The notes beneath the pieces are model-generated. The model was given only the letters and a program-made list of their open reading frames with translations, made no database searches and was not told where the DNA came from. Below, piece after piece: positions 1 through 5,264 of a stretch of DNA of 64,000 nucleotides. The first letter of the stretch is position 1. Every line of letters begins with the position of its first letter. Made by a program: the position numbers and the translations under genes. This stretch comes from Billgrantia saliphila. Lineage in GTDB: Bacteria > Pseudomonadota > Gammaproteobacteria > Pseudomonadales > Halomonadaceae. The DNA lies in assembly GCF_002930105.1 (NCBI RefSeq), contig NZ_PJRN01000003.1, forward strand, positions 124,001-188,000, written 5' to 3'.

Positions 1-245
1 GAGGCCACGTTGGAGTAGCTGTTGGTGATCACCGCCATCATGATCAGCCCGGGCACGATGAAGTCCATGTAGCTGAAGCCATCCATCTCGCCGATACGCG
101 AGCCGATCAGGCTGCCGAAGATGATGAAGTACATGGTCATGGTGATCGATGGCGGCAGCAGGGTCTGCGGCCAGATGCGCGTGAAGCGCTTGACCTCCTT
201 GTACACCACGGTCCAGAGAGCGATGGCGACCTGAGTGGGATTCAT
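1..245 (-). CDS. yadH: ABC-2 type transporter permease, YadH family (partial, 3' end outside window)
   Basis: Membrane subunit of a two-component ABC exporter, partner of the ATPase encoded just upstream. Translating the minus strand from the ATG at 245 gives MNPTQVAIALWTVVYKEVKR and then a stretch with IWPQTLLPP, MYFIIFGSLIG and YMDFIVPGLIMM, which matches the N-terminus of the E. coli YadH permease family. The first hydrophobic membrane segment (about residues 28-45) is visible. The ATG overlaps the stop of the ATPase gene by four bases (ATGA), so the two are translationally coupled. Only about 81 residues lie inside the window and the reading frame runs off the left edge. The substrate of YadGH is not known. 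Confidence 0.9.
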   Translation of the reverse strand, partial: MNPTQVAIALWTVVYKEVKRFTRIWPQTLLPPSITMTMYFIIFGSLIGSRIGEMDGFSYMDFIVPGLIMMAVITNSYSNVA

Positions 246-1201
246 TGACTCACCTCCGCCTTCTTGACCGGATTGGCGCGATTCCCCTCCTCCACCATGG
301 AAACGAACATCTCCTCCAGCCGGTTGGCCCGGTTGCGCATGGAGACGACCTCGATGCCGCGCTCGCCCAGGGCGGTGAATACATCATTAAGGCGCTGGCC
401 GCGGTGCACCACCACGGCAAGCTGGGCACTGTCCACCTGCCTTACCTCGAAGCCCTCGATCGCCGGCGCATCTTCTACCGGATGAGCCAGGTCGAGCAGG
501 AAGGTCTCGGTATCGAGTTCGGCCAGCAGGCCGCGCACGCTGGTGTTACGCACGATCTCGCCGTGGTTGATGATCGCCACGTTGCGACACAGGCTCTCGG
601 CTTCCTCGAGATAGTGGGTGGTGAGAATGATGGTGGTGCCCTCGTCGCGATTGATGCGGCGCATGTATTCCCACATGCTGCGACGCAGCTCGATATCGAC
701 CCCGGCAGTGGGCTCGTCGAGAATCAATAGCTTGGGCCGATGCATCAGCGCGCGGGCGATCATCAGGCGGCGCTTCATGCCGCCGGAGAGCATGCGCGCG
801 CTGCCGTTACGCTTGTCCCACAGGCCGAGGTCCTTGAGCAGCGTTTCGGCACGGGGCAGCGCCTCGCGCCGCGGCATGCCGTAGTAGCCCGCCTGCGCCA
901 GCACGATGTCGATCACCTTCTCGAACTGGTTGAAGTTGAATTCCTGCGGCACCACGCCCAGGTGATACTTGGCGCGTGCGAAGTCTCGGTCGATGTCGAT
1001 GCCGAAGATCGAGACCGCGCCGGCGGTTTTCTGTACCAGAGAGCACACGACGCCCAGCGTGGTGGACTTGCCGGCCCCGTTGGGGCCCAGCAGGGCGAAG
1101 AAATCGCCCTGCTCGACGTCGAGATCGATGCCCTTCAGGGCGTGAAAGCCGTTGCCGTAGACCTTGGTCAGGCCACGGATCGACAGCGCCGGTTCGGCCA
1201 T
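242..1201 (-). CDS. yadG: ABC transporter ATP-binding protein, YadG family
   Basis: Cytoplasmic ATPase that powers the YadH permease. The 319-residue product has the full nucleotide-binding signature: Walker A GPNGAGKST at about residues 39-47, the LSGGMKRRL signature, and Walker B LLILDEPTAG followed by the H-loop TTHYLEEAE. Beyond about residue 230 lies the roughly 80-residue C-terminal extension usual in drug/polysaccharide-type ABC-2 ATPases. E. coli YadG is about 308 residues, so length agrees. The start ATG is preceded by AAGGA at a good distance. It lies downstream of the tRNA cluster on the same strand, and read-through from that operon is possible because I see no convincing terminator between them. 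Confidence 0.95.
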   Translation of the reverse strand: MAEPALSIRGLTKVYGNGFHALKGIDLDVEQGDFFALLGPNGAGKSTTLGVVCSLVQKTAGAVSIFGIDIDRDFARAKYHLGVVPQEFNFNQFEKVIDIVLAQAGYYGMPRREALPRAETLLKDLGLWDKRNGSARMLSGGMKRRLMIARALMHRPKLLILDEPTAGVDIELRRSMWEYMRRINRDEGTTIILTTHYLEEAESLCRNVAIINHGEIVRNTSVRGLLAELDTETFLLDLAHPVEDAPAIEGFEVRQVDSAQLAVVVHRGQRLNDVFTALGERGIEVVSMRNRANRLEEMFVSMVEEGNRANPVKKAEVSQ

Positions 1202-1335
1202 GGGACATCCTTGGTTTAGATGGAAAACGAGTTCAGGACATTAGGGCGCGAAGGAATTTTTCAAGCCTGACCCAGGAAAAACGCAGCGTGACCTCGCCCA
1301 TGGGCAAGGTAAGCAAATTTTTTTGGGGGAGAAAA

Positions 1336-1578
1336 TGGAGCGGGAAAGGAGATCGACCGGGCTGGCGCACCAGATCACGACCCGAGCCATGGCACCCTGG
1401 AAAACGGATAAGGAAATGGAGCGGGAAAGGAGATCGACCGGGCTGGCGCACCAGATCACGACCCGAGCCATGGCACCCTGGAAAATGGATAAGGAAATGG
1501 AGCGGGAAAGGAGATCGACCGGGCTGGCGCACCAGATCACGACCCGAGCCATGGCACCCTGGAAAATGGATAAGGAAA
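1336..1578 (-). repeat. Three tandem 81-bp direct repeats, each starting with the 3' end of tRNA-Gly
   Basis: Units start at 1336, 1417 and 1498 and the next period (1579) is the 3' end of the last real tRNA-Gly gene. The three units are identical except for one base (C at 1405, T at 1486 and 1567). The first 18 bases of each unit, on the plus strand, equal the terminal 18 bases of the tRNA-Gly gene including the encoded CCA. The other 63 bases are not tRNA. In the transcribed (minus) direction the repeats form the trailer of the Glu/Gly tRNA operon, and each contains a small CTGG/CCAG hairpin. The arrangement resembles the rtT repeats behind tyrT in E. coli (units of about 178 bp starting with 19 bp of tRNA 3' end). 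Between 1202 and 1335 I see only the yadG ribosome binding site and a weak GCCCATGGGC palindrome, without a clear terminator. Confidence 0.9.
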
Positions 1579-1653
1579 TGGAGCGGGAAAGGAGATTCGA
1601 ACTCCCGACCCTCGCCTTGGCAAGGCGATGCTCTACCACTGAGCTATTCCCGC
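1579..1653 (-). tRNA. tRNA-Gly (GCC), third pair
   Basis: The minus strand folds as a complete cloverleaf: 7-bp acceptor GCGGGAA/TTCCCGC, D-arm GCTC/GAGC, anticodon stem TCGCC/GGCGA with loop TTGCCAA (anticodon GCC), T-arm with TTCGAAT loop, discriminator T and encoded CCA. It is 75 nt long including CCA. The sequence is identical to the two other glycine tRNAs of the operon. It is followed directly, at zero spacing, by the 81-bp repeats that copy its 3' end. Confidence 0.98.
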
Positions 1654-1675
1654 TTATCGACACGGTACGTCGAGG

Positions 1676-1751
1676 TGGCGTCCCATAGGGGGTTCGAACC
1701 CCTGTTCCCGCCGTGAAAGGGCGGTGTCCTAGGCCACTAGACGAATGGGAC
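1676..1751 (-). tRNA. tRNA-Glu (TTC), third pair
   Basis: A 76-nt cloverleaf on the minus strand beginning GTCCCATTCGTC, with anticodon loop CTTTCAC (anticodon TTC), T-loop TTCGAAC, discriminator G and encoded CCA. It lies 22 bases upstream of the third tRNA-Gly in the same transcript. The D-arm region reads AGTGGCCTAGG here, whereas the other copies read AGTGGTCTAGG and AGTGGTCCAGG, so the three glutamate genes have begun to diverge at this place. Confidence 0.98.
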
Positions 1752-1789
1752 GCAAAAGACAGGCATGACAACATCACCTGAAAAGATGA

Positions 1790-1871
1790 TGGAGCGGGAA
1801 AGGAGATCGACCGGGCTGGCGCACCAGCTCCCGACCCTCACCTTGACCTGCTCACCTGCCGAAGCAGGATT
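1790..1871 (-). repeat. Degenerate tRNA-Gly remnant between second and third tRNA pairs
   Basis: This 82-bp unit begins with the same 18 bases of tRNA-Gly 3' end (including CCA) as the 81-bp repeats and shares with them the next 20 bases or so (CGACCGGGCTGGCGCACCAG). It then differs: it continues with CTCCCGACCCTCACCTTG, which matches the T-stem to anticodon-stem part of the tRNA-Gly gene with one change. It therefore looks like a tRNA-Gly gene broken by a short insertion in its T-loop and missing its 5' half. It abuts the second tRNA-Gly. Confidence 0.8.
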
Positions 1872-1946
1872 TGGAGCGGGAAAGGAGATTCGAACTCCCG
1901 ACCCTCGCCTTGGCAAGGCGATGCTCTACCACTGAGCTATTCCCGC
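1872..1946 (-). tRNA. tRNA-Gly (GCC), second pair
   Basis: A 75-nt minus-strand cloverleaf identical to the glycine tRNA at 1579-1653, with anticodon GCC and encoded CCA. It is the second member of the middle Glu/Gly pair. The remnant unit starting at 1790 directly follows it in the direction of transcription. Confidence 0.98.
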
Positions 1947-2004
1947 ATGCACGACAGTCTATGCTATCACTGACGCAACCGCTATCGCTGCTGCAACCGG
2001 AAAA

Positions 2005-2080
2005 TGGCGTCCCATAGGGGGTTCGAACCCCTGTTCCCGCCGTGAAAGGGCGGTGTCCTAGACCACTAGACGAATGGGAC
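2005..2080 (-). tRNA. tRNA-Glu (TTC), second pair
   Basis: A 76-nt cloverleaf with anticodon TTC and encoded CCA, differing from the other two copies only in the D-arm (AGTGGTCTAGG). A 58-base spacer separates it from the second tRNA-Gly. Amplification of the Glu-Gly pair is the simplest origin for this layout. Confidence 0.98.
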
Positions 2081-2085
2081 GCAGC

Positions 2086-2181
2086 TGGAGCGGGAAAGGA
2101 GATCGACGGGGCTGCCGTCGCCGGGCTGGCGCACCAGCTCCCGACCCTCACCTTGACCTGCTCACCTGCCGAAGCAGGATT
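2086..2181 (-). repeat. Degenerate tRNA-Gly remnant between first and second tRNA pairs
   Basis: This is a 96-bp version of the remnant at 1790-1871. It has the 18-base tRNA-Gly 3' end including CCA, then an extra 14 bases or so containing a CGACGG/CCGTCG hairpin, then the shared GGGCTGGCGCACCAG, then the CTCCCGACCCTCACCTTG segment matching the middle of tRNA-Gly. It abuts the first tRNA-Gly. Its presence after pair one, and of the similar unit after pair two, shows that pair and remnant were duplicated together. Confidence 0.8.
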
Positions 2182-2256
2182 TGGAGCGGGAAAGGAGATT
2201 CGAACTCCCGACCCTCGCCTTGGCAAGGCGATGCTCTACCACTGAGCTATTCCCGC
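2182..2256 (-). tRNA. tRNA-Gly (GCC), first pair
   Basis: A 75-nt minus-strand cloverleaf identical to the two other glycine tRNAs, with anticodon GCC and encoded CCA. It lies 31 bases downstream of the promoter-proximal tRNA-Glu. Confidence 0.98.
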
Positions 2257-2287
2257 ACTCCGGTACCTTGCTGAAGGTGAAAACGAG

Positions 2288-2363
2288 TGGCGTCCCATAG
2301 GGGGTTCGAACCCCTGTTCCCGCCGTGAAAGGGCGGTGTCCTGGACCACTAGACGAATGGGAC
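2288..2363 (-). tRNA. tRNA-Glu (TTC), first gene of the operon
   Basis: A 76-nt cloverleaf with anticodon TTC and encoded CCA. It is the first gene after the promoter at 2401-2429. Its D-arm reads AGTGGTCCAGG, different from the other two copies. Six tRNAs follow in the order Glu-Gly-Glu-Gly-Glu-Gly. Confidence 0.98.
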
Positions 2364-2400
2364 GCAGCCGTCTCGCTCTCGCCTCAACGAGGTGGCGCGA

Positions 2401-2429
2401 ATGTTACTCAAGCCCCTCGGGGCTGTCAA
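2401..2429 (-). promoter_or_regulatory. Sigma70 promoter of the tRNA-Glu/Gly operon
   Basis: On the minus strand TTGACA (2424-2429) and TAACAT (2401-2406) are separated by exactly 17 bases. The -35 is consensus and the -10 has four of six consensus bases. The region after the -10 (TCGCGCCACC) is GC-rich, as in stringently controlled stable-RNA promoters. Transcription would start around 2394, about 30 bases before the first tRNA-Glu. A small GCCCCGAGGGGC palindrome lies in the spacer. Confidence 0.85.
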
Positions 2430-2513
2430 CAGTCGGCCTGGGTTGGCCGAAGGAATGGAAAGCAGCCAGACTTTCGGTGTCAGATGACGAGTCGCATCAG
2501 CAGGAGAGAGGCC

Positions 2514-2915
2514 ATGCGCAAGAAGATCGAGAAGAGCGACGCCGAATGGCGCACCCAGCTCACCCCGGAGCAGTACCGCGTGACGCGACAGCAGGGCACC
2601 GAGCCGCCCTTCTCCGGCGACTACCAGGTCAGCAACGAGCACGGTATCTACCACTGCGTCTGCTGCAATGCCCCGCTGTTCGAGAACGAGCACAAGTTCG
2701 AGGCCCACTGCGGCTGGCCGAGCTTCGACCGACCTCTCGGCCAGGCCGCGGTGGAGGAGCGCTTCGACGAATCACACGGCATGCGCCGCACCGAGGTGGT
2801 TTGCGCACACTGTGACGCCCACCTGGGTCACGTTTTCCCCGACGGCCCGCCTCAGACCACCGGACTGCGCTACTGCATCAACTCGGTGGCCATCTCGTTC
2901 CACCCCGGCGAATAG
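2514..2915 (+). CDS. msrB: Peptide-methionine (R)-S-oxide reductase MsrB
   Basis: Reduces the R epimer of methionine sulfoxide in proteins, a cytoplasmic repair enzyme. The 133-residue product has the two zinc-binding CxxC pairs (CVCC near the start of the SelR fold and CAHC further on), the GWPSFDRP segment and the catalytic cysteine in [13 protein letters not shown]. The ATG at 2514 is chosen because AGGAGAG lies six to twelve bases before it. The frame is open further upstream but into the tRNA promoter. No signal peptide is present. The methionine-S-sulfoxide counterpart MsrA is encoded separately near 50.1 kb and is exported, so the two epimer repairs are split between compartments here. 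Confidence 0.96.
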
Positions 2916-2986
2916 CCCGCCCTCTGCCCTGCCAAGGCCGCCCTTCTGCTATGATGGGCGGCCTCGTACGTTTGCAGGAGTGGCAC

Positions 2987-3967
2987 ATGCTCGGCTGGTA
3001 TCCGGGACACATGAACAAGGCGCGCCGCCAGATTCAGGAGGCGCTGCCGGAAATCGACGTGGCGATCGAAGTGCTCGACGCCCGCCTGCCCTACTCCAGT
3101 GCCAACCCCATGCTTGCCGGACTGACGCGCCATAAGCCGGTGCTCAAGGTTCTCTCGCGAGCCGACCTGGCCGACCCGGAGCGCACCCGTGAATGGGTGG
3201 CGCATTTCGATTCGCTGCCCGATACCCGCGCGCTGGCCGTGACCACCACCAACGCCCGAGAACTCAAGCGCATTCCCAAGCTGTGCCATGAGCTGGCTGG
3301 GCAAGTGCGCGCCGATCGAGACGTGCGTGTAATGGTCATGGGCATTCCCAACGTGGGCAAGTCGACCCTGATCAACGGCCTGGCCGGTAAGGCCATCGCC
3401 AAGACCGGCAACGAGCCGGCGGTGACCAAGCGTCAGCAGAAGGTGCGCATCCAGGGCCGCGTGGCGCTGATCGACACTCCCGGAGTGCTGTGGCCCAAGA
3501 TCGAGGATCAGGCCAGCGCCTATCGCCTGGCCGCCACCGGCGCCATTCGCGACACCGCCATCGACTATGTCGACGTGGCGGTGGTCACCGCCGCCGAGCT
3601 GGCCCGCCGCTACCCCGAGGCGCTACAGGAGCGCTACAAGCTCGGCGAGCTGCCGCGCTATATCCCCCATCCCGAGGCCGAACGGGTCGAGGCTGACGGC
3701 CCCCAGCGCATCGACCTGCTGGCCGTGGCCGGCTTCGACGGCCATGCGATTCTCAGCGAGATCGCCAGCCGTCGCGGCGGCCTGCGCCCCGGCGGCGAGG
3801 TGGATCTGCACCGCGGTGCCGAGGTGCTGCTGCATGAATTACGCGACGGCAAGCTCGGCCGCCTGACGCTGGAGACCCCGGCCGACGTGCCCGCCCCCGA
3901 AGCCGTTGAAGATACCGCATCGGCTGCGGCTGATGGCGATAGCGGCGAAGGCGCCGAGCCCGCATAA
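2987..3967 (+). CDS. ylqF: Ribosome biogenesis GTPase YlqF/RbgA family
   Basis: Circularly permuted GTPase of about 326 residues that acts in large-subunit ribosome assembly in its relatives. The permuted motif order is visible: a G4-like element SRADLAD near residue 57 comes before G1 GIPNVGKST (about 119-127) and G3 DTPG (about 163-166). The N-terminus MLGWYPGHMNKA is the family hallmark. CAGGAG seven bases before the ATG at 2987 fixes that start over upstream in-frame ATGs. The C-terminal tail from about residue 300 is rich in Glu, Asp and Ala and looks disordered. Gammaproteobacterial members are less studied than Bacillus RbgA, so the exact assembly step is inferred. Confidence 0.93.
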   Translation: MLGWYPGHMNKARRQIQEALPEIDVAIEVLDARLPYSSANPMLAGLTRHKPVLKVLSRADLADPERTREWVAHFDSLPDTRALAVTTTNARELKRIPKLCHELAGQVRADRDVRVMVMGIPNVGKSTLINGLAGKAIAKTGNEPAVTKRQQKVRIQGRVALIDTPGVLWPKIEDQASAYRLAATGAIRDTAIDYVDVAVVTAAELARRYPEALQERYKLGELPRYIPHPEAERVEADGPQRIDLLAVAGFDGHAILSEIASRRGGLRPGGEVDLHRGAEVLLHELRDGKLGRLTLETPADVPAPEAVEDTASAAADGDSGEGAEPA

Positions 3968-4031
3968 TCAACGAGCTCCGGCAACCCGCCTGACCGGAGC
4001 CACCGGACATCACAGGAATTCGGACATCTCC

Positions 4032-5264
4032 ATGGACACGCCCTCCCTATTCAGGAAATCGCATAAGCTCGACAACGTCTGCTACGACATCCGCGGCCCC
4101 GTGCTCGAGCACGCCAAGCGGCTGGAAGACGAAGGCCAGCGCATCCTCAAGCTCAACATCGGCAACCCGGCGCCATTTGGCTTCGAAGCGCCCGAGGAAA
4201 TCCTCCAGGACGTGATGCGCAACTTGCCCACCGCTCAGGGTTACTGCGATTCCAAGGGGCTCTATTCGGCACGCAAGGCGATCATGCAGGAGTGCCAGCG
4301 CAAGGAGATTCCGGGCGTCGGCATTGAGGACATCTTCATCGGCAACGGCGTCTCCGAGCTGATCGTGATGGCGCTGCAGGCGCTGCTCAATGACGGCGAC
4401 GAAGTGCTGATTCCCGCTCCCGACTACCCTCTGTGGACTGCCGCCGCCAACCTCGCCGGCGGACGCGGAGTGCACTACCGCTGCGATGAGCAGGCCGATT
4501 GGGCGCCGGACATCGCCGATCTGCGCTCCAAAGTGACCAGCCATACCCGAGCCCTGGTGATCATCAACCCCAACAACCCCACCGGCGCGGTCTACCCGCC
4601 CGAAGTGGTGCGCGAGATGCTAGAGGTGGCTCGCGAGCACGACCTGGTGGTGTTCTCCGACGAAATCTACGACAAGATCTTGTACGACGGCACCGAGCAC
4701 GTCTCCACCGCCGCCCTGGCCGACGAGGACCAGCTGGTGGTGACCATGAACGGGCTGTCCAAGAGCTACCGCTGCGCCGGCTTCCGCTCCGGCTGGATGA
4801 TCCTCTCCGGCAGCGTCGCCATGCAGCGCGCACGCGACTACGTACAGGGTATCAACATGCTCGCCTCGATGCGCCTGTGCGCCAACGTGCCGGCCCAGCA
4901 CGCCATCCAGACAGCGCTGGGCGGCTATCAGTCGATCAACGACCTGATCCTGCCGGGTGGGCGGCTGTTGGCCCAGCGCGACATCACCTACGAGAAGCTC
5001 AACGCCATCCCAGGGGTGTCGTGCACCAAGGCCAAGGGTGCGCTCTACGCCTTCCCGCGGCTCGACCCCAAGGTCTATCCCATCCAGGACGACCAGAAAC
5101 TGGTGCTCGACCTGCTGTTGCAGGAGAAGATCCTGTTGGTGCAGGGCACGGCCTTCAACTGGCCGGAGCCGGACCACGTGCGCATCGTCACCCTGCCCTG
5201 GGCCGACCAGCTCGGCGACGCCCTGGATCGCTTCGCTCACTTCCTGTCGCGCTATCGCCAATGA
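4032..5264 (+). CDS. alaA: Alanine aminotransferase AlaA (glutamate-pyruvate transaminase)
   Basis: PLP-dependent class I aminotransferase that makes alanine from pyruvate and glutamate. The 410-residue protein resembles E. coli AlaA (405 residues) throughout: RGPVLEHAKRLE, LNIGNPAPFGFEAP, ALINPNNPTGAVY-like VIINPNNPTGAVYPPEV, and the PLP lysine in NGLSKSYRCAGFRSG (K at about 244). The ATG at 4032 gives MDTPSLFRKSHKLDNVCYDI, aligned with the family N-terminus, whereas the upstream part of the open frame has no such similarity. The ribosome binding site is weak. It is followed 136 bases later by htpX, which appears to have its own promoter. Confidence 0.95.
   Translation: MDTPSLFRKSHKLDNVCYDIRGPVLEHAKRLEDEGQRILKLNIGNPAPFGFEAPEEILQDVMRNLPTAQGYCDSKGLYSARKAIMQECQRKEIPGVGIEDIFIGNGVSELIVMALQALLNDGDEVLIPAPDYPLWTAAANLAGGRGVHYRCDEQADWAPDIADLRSKVTSHTRALVIINPNNPTGAVYPPEVVREMLEVAREHDLVVFSDEIYDKILYDGTEHVSTAALADEDQLVVTMNGLSKSYRCAGFRSGWMILSGSVAMQRARDYVQGINMLASMRLCANVPAQHAIQTALGGYQSINDLILPGGRLLAQRDITYEKLNAIPGVSCTKAKGALYAFPRLDPKVYPIQDDQKLVLDLLLQEKILLVQGTAFNWPEPDHVRIVTLPWADQLGDALDRFAHFLSRYRQ

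Follow-up and report, generated by a model that had tools for sequence, protein, structure and literature searches.

An rtT-like Array of Probable tRNA-Gly(GCC)-Derived Repeats in Billgrantia saliphila, and a T-Loop Hairpin Shared with Dispersed Repeats

Introduction

Repeats built on the 3' end of a tRNA gene, called rtT, are best known from the tyrT operon of Escherichia coli. A further comparison is offered by 3'ETS-leuZ, a tRNA-derived external transcribed spacer that is a by-product of tRNA processing. In our E. coli K-12 control, the 19 nt that end tRNA-Tyr appear again in the tyrT-tyrV spacer and, past tyrV, three more times with a spacing of 178 bp; each of these tail copies ends a match to RtT (RF00391, RttR RNA), and the tyrT region holds four such matches. 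One source describes RtT as an RNA freed from a tRNA operon transcript and implicates it in the response to amino-acid limitation (PMC4986893).

Two mobile systems also bear comparison. For ICEclc, recombination takes place at the terminal 18 bp on the 3' side of tRNA-Gly genes, exclusively those with a GCC anticodon (PMC6563109). REP elements are short hairpins moved by TnpA-REP (RAYT), for which cleavage at CT is reported (PMC8266576).

Here we describe an array of tRNA-tailed repeats, which we call modules, in a 64,000-nt stretch of Billgrantia saliphila DNA (the window). We consider it reasonably probable that the array is the end of a recombination-driven repeat system derived from tRNA-Gly(GCC). 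A search of open-access papers found nothing on these modules or their hairpins.

The Operon and Its Terminal Array

The operon lies on the minus strand and reads Glu-Gly-module-Glu-Gly-module-Glu-Gly-three modules; it thus comprises three tRNA-Glu/tRNA-Gly pairs, with the array at its downstream end, after the third tRNA-Gly (Table 1). Tandem Repeats Finder (TRF) gives this terminal array a period of 81, 3.3 copies, and 99% matches at 1333-1596; its units differ from one another by at most one base, and their exact number rests on a draft assembly of 47 contigs. The array unit and both internal modules that were compared share the final 18 nt of tRNA-Gly, ATCTCCTTTCCCGCTCCA (minus strand), without a mismatch. 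This 18-mer occurs eight times in the window, on one strand only—three true tRNA ends and five modules.

The initial annotation had described three near-identical tandem units of 81 bp, each opening with the last 18 nt of tRNA-Gly including CCA and in phase with the tRNA end at 1579, and had likened them to E. coli rtT repeats with tRNA tails of about 19 bp; the repeats are confirmed, and the likeness holds for architecture. It had overlooked the minus-strand operon, the two further modules, the T-stem, the T-loop hairpin, and the link to dispersed repeats. The two internal modules differ solely by a second insert of 14 nt that lies directly 5' of TCGA in module 1. Past the array lies a terminator-like hairpin that looks similar, by eye, in several relatives; a terminator scan did not report it.

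Table 1. Features of the tRNA-Glu/tRNA-Gly operon and its modules in the window.
Feature	Position	Strand	Basis
Promoter-like site TTGACA-17-TAACAT, 5' of first tRNA-Glu	2401..2429	minus	consensus match only; 1 in 1-3000, shuffles mean 0.7
tRNA-Glu(TTC) 1	2288..2363	minus	tRNA model match
tRNA-Gly(GCC) 1	2182..2256	minus	tRNA model match
Module 1, 96 nt, internal spacer	2086..2181	minus	18-mer match, comparison with module 2
14-nt second insert CGACGGCAGCCCCG, module 1	2107..2120	minus	module comparison
17-nt hairpin unit CTGGTGCGCCAGCCCGG, module 1	2121..2137	minus	sequence
tRNA-Glu(TTC) 2	2005..2080	minus	tRNA model match
tRNA-Gly(GCC) 2	1872..1946	minus	tRNA model match
Module 2, 82 nt, internal spacer	1790..1871	minus	18-mer match, module comparison
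17-nt hairpin unit, module 2	1811..1827	minus	sequence
tRNA-Glu(TTC) 3	1676..1751	minus	tRNA model match
tRNA-Gly(GCC) 3	1579..1653	minus	tRNA model match
Terminal array unit 1, 81 nt	1498..1578	minus	TRF, 18-mer, comparison
Terminal array unit 2, 81 nt	1417..1497	minus	TRF, 18-mer, comparison
Terminal array unit 3, 81 nt	1336..1416	minus	TRF, 18-mer, comparison
17-nt hairpin unit, array unit 1	1519..1535	minus	sequence
17-nt hairpin unit, array unit 2	1438..1454	minus	sequence
17-nt hairpin unit, array unit 3	1357..1373	minus	sequence
Terminator-like hairpin (1291-1310) and T5 run (1277-1281), past the array	1277..1310	minus	sequence, fold

Module Anatomy and the Link to tRNA-Gly(GCC)

What the module retains of tRNA-Gly is the T-stem, TCGA from the T-loop, the acceptor strand on the 3' side, and CCA; the 5' side of the acceptor stem is gone, as are the D and anticodon arms for the most part. 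The hairpin unit (CTGGTGCGCCAGCCCGG in the window) sits between T-stem and TCGA. The upstream part of the module is short and variable. D-loop and anticodon-arm sequence can still be recognised there in some relatives (L062, L035), which argues that the modules are decayed copies of tRNA-Gly. A tRNA model run on positions 1-5000 at E<=1 matches six tRNA genes but not the modules. Modules that our script could split are 73-102 nt long; two 184-nt stretches of one locus (L005) stayed unsplit and were excluded.

Defining a module as a hairpin followed by a tail resembling that of tRNA-Gly, we counted 183 distinct modules in the loci collected. A tRNA-Gly lies upstream of 181 of them, always with the anticodon GCC—some loci were fetched with a tRNA-containing query, which favours this outcome—and the other two (L011, L023) lie at contig starts. 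The distance from tRNA end to hairpin is at most 150 nt in 160 modules and reaches 585 nt. The last 18 nt are identical to those of the upstream tRNA-Gly in 129 of 180 modules, and the T-stem strands CTCC and CTCG match the upstream tRNA in 89 and 63 cases, respectively, with no exchange between the two; where an operon holds both tRNA types (two cases), each module matches its own tRNA. Such agreement implies that modules evolve in concert with the adjacent tRNA, or were duplicated with it. All five T-stem pairs can form in 79 modules, four of five in 83, and fewer in 21; several arrays have near-identical units inside and decayed copies at the end.

Operons of the Gly-Cys-Leu type likewise have modules behind their tRNA-Gly (L012, L035, L121). 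Saccharospirillum sp. MSK14-1 (L155, L159) has, upstream of its true tRNA-Gly, a pseudogene that resembles tRNA-Gly but whose anticodon and T arms are altered.

We also scanned the B. saliphila genome for tRNA tails repeated within 420 nt downstream of their genes, allowing up to three mismatches and merging identical contexts. Among 55 distinct tRNA contexts, tail copies follow only the tRNA-Gly(GCC) of the operon and one tRNA-Met(CAT); another tRNA-Gly(GCC) of the genome has no module downstream. The tRNA-Met(CAT), probably an initiator, lies outside the window (contig G000:C19; L306 663-739, 831-957) and is followed by an intrinsic terminator, past which stands a tandem pair of units of about 109 bp, each bearing the 3' end of the tRNA along with a copy of the terminator. 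These units are a second rtT-like case in this genome; as they lie behind the terminator, co-transcription is no general rule.

Distribution of the Modules

A DNA search matched 72 of 90 genomes of the genus at E<=0.001, part of the matches being mere tRNA tails or dispersed repeats. We then built a covariance model from 47 modules and ran it on 275 genomes of the family, applying the stricter filter settings meant for large sets. Modules were found in about 166 of these 275 Halomonadaceae genomes and in 14 of 24 genera, counted by hand at a cutoff of our choosing (best E < 3e-10; tRNA-Gly genes themselves appear to score at E of about 1e-9 to 5e-8). By this cutoff at most 109 of the 275 genomes are without modules, an overestimate because divergent modules are missed—one genome (G038) falls below the cutoff yet has divergent double-hairpin modules (L222). 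Their lack in up to that many genomes argues against the modules being essential.

In an order-level sample, 21 of 390 genomes match at E<=1e-9, 11 of them outside Halomonadaceae and in three families. An exact pattern scan of a one-genome-per-species collection returned 75 stretches, and beyond Halomonadaceae it names Oceanobacter, Thalassolituus, Alcanivorax, Alloalcanivorax, Saccharospirillum, and Aliikangiella. Taxonomic placement was checked for Oceanobacter kriegii, Alloalcanivorax balearicus, Saccharospirillum, Aliikangiella marina, and Billgrantia montanilacus. In the ten pattern-scan loci that were read, nine or ten of them outside the family or of unclear family, tRNA-Gly(GCC) precedes the module. 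A typed 51-nt core had no match in 50,697 phage records and a single match in 72,556 plasmid records, namely a 1.8 Mb Halomonas replicon listed as a plasmid.

The initial annotation had proposed a search of related genomes, and modules do stand behind tRNA-Gly(GCC) in many relatives; beyond the single array that it described, the architecture recurs across Halomonadaceae and in several neighbouring families. It had also allowed for an assembly artefact, which like arrays in single-contig genomes (e.g., G067, G017) make unlikely.

Covariation and Folding of the Hairpin Unit

The T-loop hairpin measures 14-17 nt, lies just 5' of TCGA, and is conserved across families. We compared 37 distinct 17-nt units, chosen by a regular expression that fixes letters 21, 28, 30, 32, and 35 and limits others to two; the constancy of 28-35 is therefore by construction and the pair percentages are inflated, with the mutual-information shuffles unaffected. 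The strongest couplings are 22-31, 27-36, 33-37, and 24-29. The pair 22-31 is T-A in 22 units, C-G in 14, and C-A in one (34/13 in the alignment); 24-29 is G-C in 35 and A-T in two (44/3 in the alignment); 27-36 is exclusively C-G, T-A, or T-G (37/37), and 34 of the 37 units have a standard pair at 33-37. In shuffles that ignore relatedness, the observed mutual information was reached 0 times in 20,000 for 22-31, 0 for 27-36, once for 33-37, and 21 times for 24-29, against 805 to 6,041 times for four control pairs. Compensatory stem changes, as expected of a single-stranded hairpin (RNA or ssDNA), are thus present at 22-31 and 24-29. This pattern suggests a 4-bp hairpin whose loop would touch the following tail.

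A second assessment used an alignment of 47 of 48 chosen modules, from which one (L006:1583-1640, with 8 nt of its hairpin lost) was excluded and from which modules with a second insert had been removed beforehand. The named structure, which was drawn from the same sequences, pairs in 94.5% of cells, compared with 26-54% for slid versions. The covariation score is 0.254 against a shuffled mean of 0.149, with none of 500 shuffles as high. Two other measures do not exceed shuffles: pairs changed on both sides (5 versus a mean of 3.9; 67 of 500 as high) and further pair types (6 versus a mean of 9.9). In 19 of the 47 modules, the T-stem positions 17 and 47 do not pair.

Thermodynamic folding stands out for one internal module. 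Neither the window array as a whole (z -0.23) nor one array unit (z +1.38) nor the typed consensus core (z -0.01) surpasses its shuffles, whereas the two internal window modules reach z -1.59 and -2.77, the latter beating 200 of 200 shuffles. Pairing between a module's own 5' part and its tail is modest in internal-type modules (n=35, mean z -0.46, 9 below -1 and none above 1) and absent from terminal-type modules (n=44, mean z +0.37, 4 below -1 and 10 above 1).

The Same Hairpin in Dispersed Repeats

The hairpin unit is also found inside dispersed repeats with terminal inverted repeats, and inside related palindromic repeats, where it again precedes TCGA or a close variant, for example TCGG. 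A dispersed repeat family whose ends are GGGAAACACTG and CAGCGCTTCCC (L166-L180, L317-L346, L348-L387) was matched in 70 of the 90 genus genomes and has no copy within the window; 16 of the 275 family genomes, from 4 of 24 genera, hold the exact pattern of the repeat form. We had considered dispersed 27-nt matches as noise and rejected this, since they belong to a repeat family with terminal inverted repeats.

Sites in these repeats can be empty or filled. For one repeat family, an exact pattern run on 61 genomes gave 19 matches: seven empty, 11 with a 16-nt insert, and one with a different, 15-nt hairpin. A second repeat context gave one empty and two filled sites. Among 65 repeat copies with distinct left flanks, some of them from one locus in several genomes, five are empty, 41 hold a CTGG-type hairpin, and 19 a CCG-type, in a sample biased by the many copies fetched for carrying the unit. 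Three 17-nt units are identical between modules and repeats, and tandem double units occur at the TCGA junction in modules. Within genomes, hairpins are shared between modules and repeats in 4 of 18 genomes against a shuffled mean of 4.3, for the loci in hand as read by regular expression. No unit was found at a unique TCGAA site; matches outside modules and repeats look, by eye, like coding sequence.

Comparison with Known Systems

The likeness to rtT that the initial annotation drew holds for architecture: as in E. coli, operon spacer and trailer repeat the 3' end of their own tRNA, and the tRNA-derived part of E. coli rtT likewise starts inside the T-loop (AATCC; L347). It does not extend to the Rfam RtT model: a search of 1283-1660 at E<=10 and one of 1-5000 at E<=1 both came back empty. 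The modules also differ from rtT in their tRNA (Gly, not Tyr), their unit length (81 rather than 178 bp), their retained T-stem, and their T-loop hairpin. The analogy is apt for architecture, and the function of the modules remains putative. Like 3'ETS-leuZ, modules would be by-products of tRNA processing, and they also occur in operons of the Gly-Cys-Leu type.

Compared with REP elements, the modules and repeats share a short hairpin present in many repeats, and the empty-site junction reads C^T; unlike REP elements, the hairpin has a 4-bp stem and is always followed by TCGA or a close variant. The 5-nt flanks on its 5' side, tallied for 183 modules, and the repeat contexts read show neither a GTAG nor a CGTC tag.

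Explanations for the Array

We favour, with moderate confidence, a repeat system derived from tRNA-Gly(GCC) and driven by recombination. Each module would start as an incomplete copy of the tRNA-Gly gene that directly precedes it and then decay, and copies would be gained or lost by recombination or slippage across the 18-nt direct repeats of the tRNA tail, an enzyme and a course of events that we infer from the pattern. Because the tRNA transcript would run through the array, module RNA should be made, and it may be cut away at tRNA maturation as rtT is in E. coli; the modules are, by this analogy, probably co-transcribed as an rtT-like trailer. The placement of 181 of 183 modules behind tRNA-Gly(GCC), the agreement of tails and T-stems, the E. 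coli tyrT architecture, and the tRNA-Met(CAT) units all support this repeat system. Against it stand a hairpin that is conserved across families and covaries, more than plain decay predicts; the one internal module that outfolds all of its shuffles; the presence in several families, which needs great age or transfer; and the other tRNA-Gly(GCC) of the genome that has no module.

The hairpin could instead have moved by itself. A unit of 14-17 nt, perhaps transferred as single-stranded DNA, may have inserted into T-loop-like YTCGAA sites of tRNA copies and repeats, a minority possibility that we nonetheless take seriously: identical 17-nt units occur in modules and repeats, one repeat family has empty, filled, and differently filled sites, double units stand at one junction, and two window modules differ by nothing but a 14-nt insert. 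The absence of units at unique TCGAA sites (by eye) and the within-genome sharing that does not rise above shuffles weigh against such movement, and in modules insertion is not polarised against deletion. Its fuller form is put forward slightly more tentatively still: the hairpin, typically C[T/C]GGNNYGCC[A/G]GYCCRR, as a putative site-specific micro-insertion at YTCGAA that entered tRNA-Gly copies repeatedly, also in tandem, as well as repeats, with a fold in which loop and tail pair (27-36, 33-37). Selection for an rtT-like small RNA, with CCA-ended tRNA mimics freed at tRNA maturation and titrating an RNA or a tRNA enzyme, strikes us as rather unlikely. It would account for a module core conserved where the 5' flank is not, for hairpin and T-stem pairs that change together, for the ability of internal-type modules to pair their 5' part with the tail, and for the folding of the internal window modules; however, the whole array, its unit, and the consensus core fold no better than shuffles, terminal-type modules lack the tail pairing, and up to 109 of 275 family genomes have no modules by our cutoff.

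Improbable, in our judgement, is an origin as attachment-site scars or decoys, that is, attR-like remnants of integrases that target the 18-bp tail of tRNA-Gly(GCC) in the manner of ICEclc. The block shared by module and tRNA is exactly 18 nt and ends in CCA, the length given for the ICEclc site (PMC6563109). Unlike attB/attR of ICEclc, the units are about 80 bp long, have no cargo or integrase in the places examined, and duplicate the tRNA T-stem too, including its 5' strand, and they adjoin the tRNA closely. No integrase family appeared among nine downstream ORFs, a small sample from nine of the 14 loci with ORFs listed, in which one ORF had no Pfam match and, at one locus (L155), a nearer frame of 123 aa was passed over; the record searches with the 51-nt core also speak against this origin. 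A chance repeat or assembly artefact can be given hardly any weight and was rejected: the assembly is indeed a draft, but the array detected by TRF is real, like arrays occur in single-contig genomes, and modules reach over half of the genera sampled in the family.

Conclusions

The modules place the rtT architecture on another tRNA, across Halomonadaceae and several neighbouring families, so that its origin and use become testable by comparison. More interesting than the array itself is the shared hairpin. Its presence in both tRNA-tail repeats and dispersed repeats raises the question of whether a sequence of about 16 nt moves by itself or whether the repeats recombine with one another. Micro-insertion, if true, would make the hairpin one of the smallest known mobile sequences and would trace the beginnings of tRNA-tail repeats to insertion into the T-loop.
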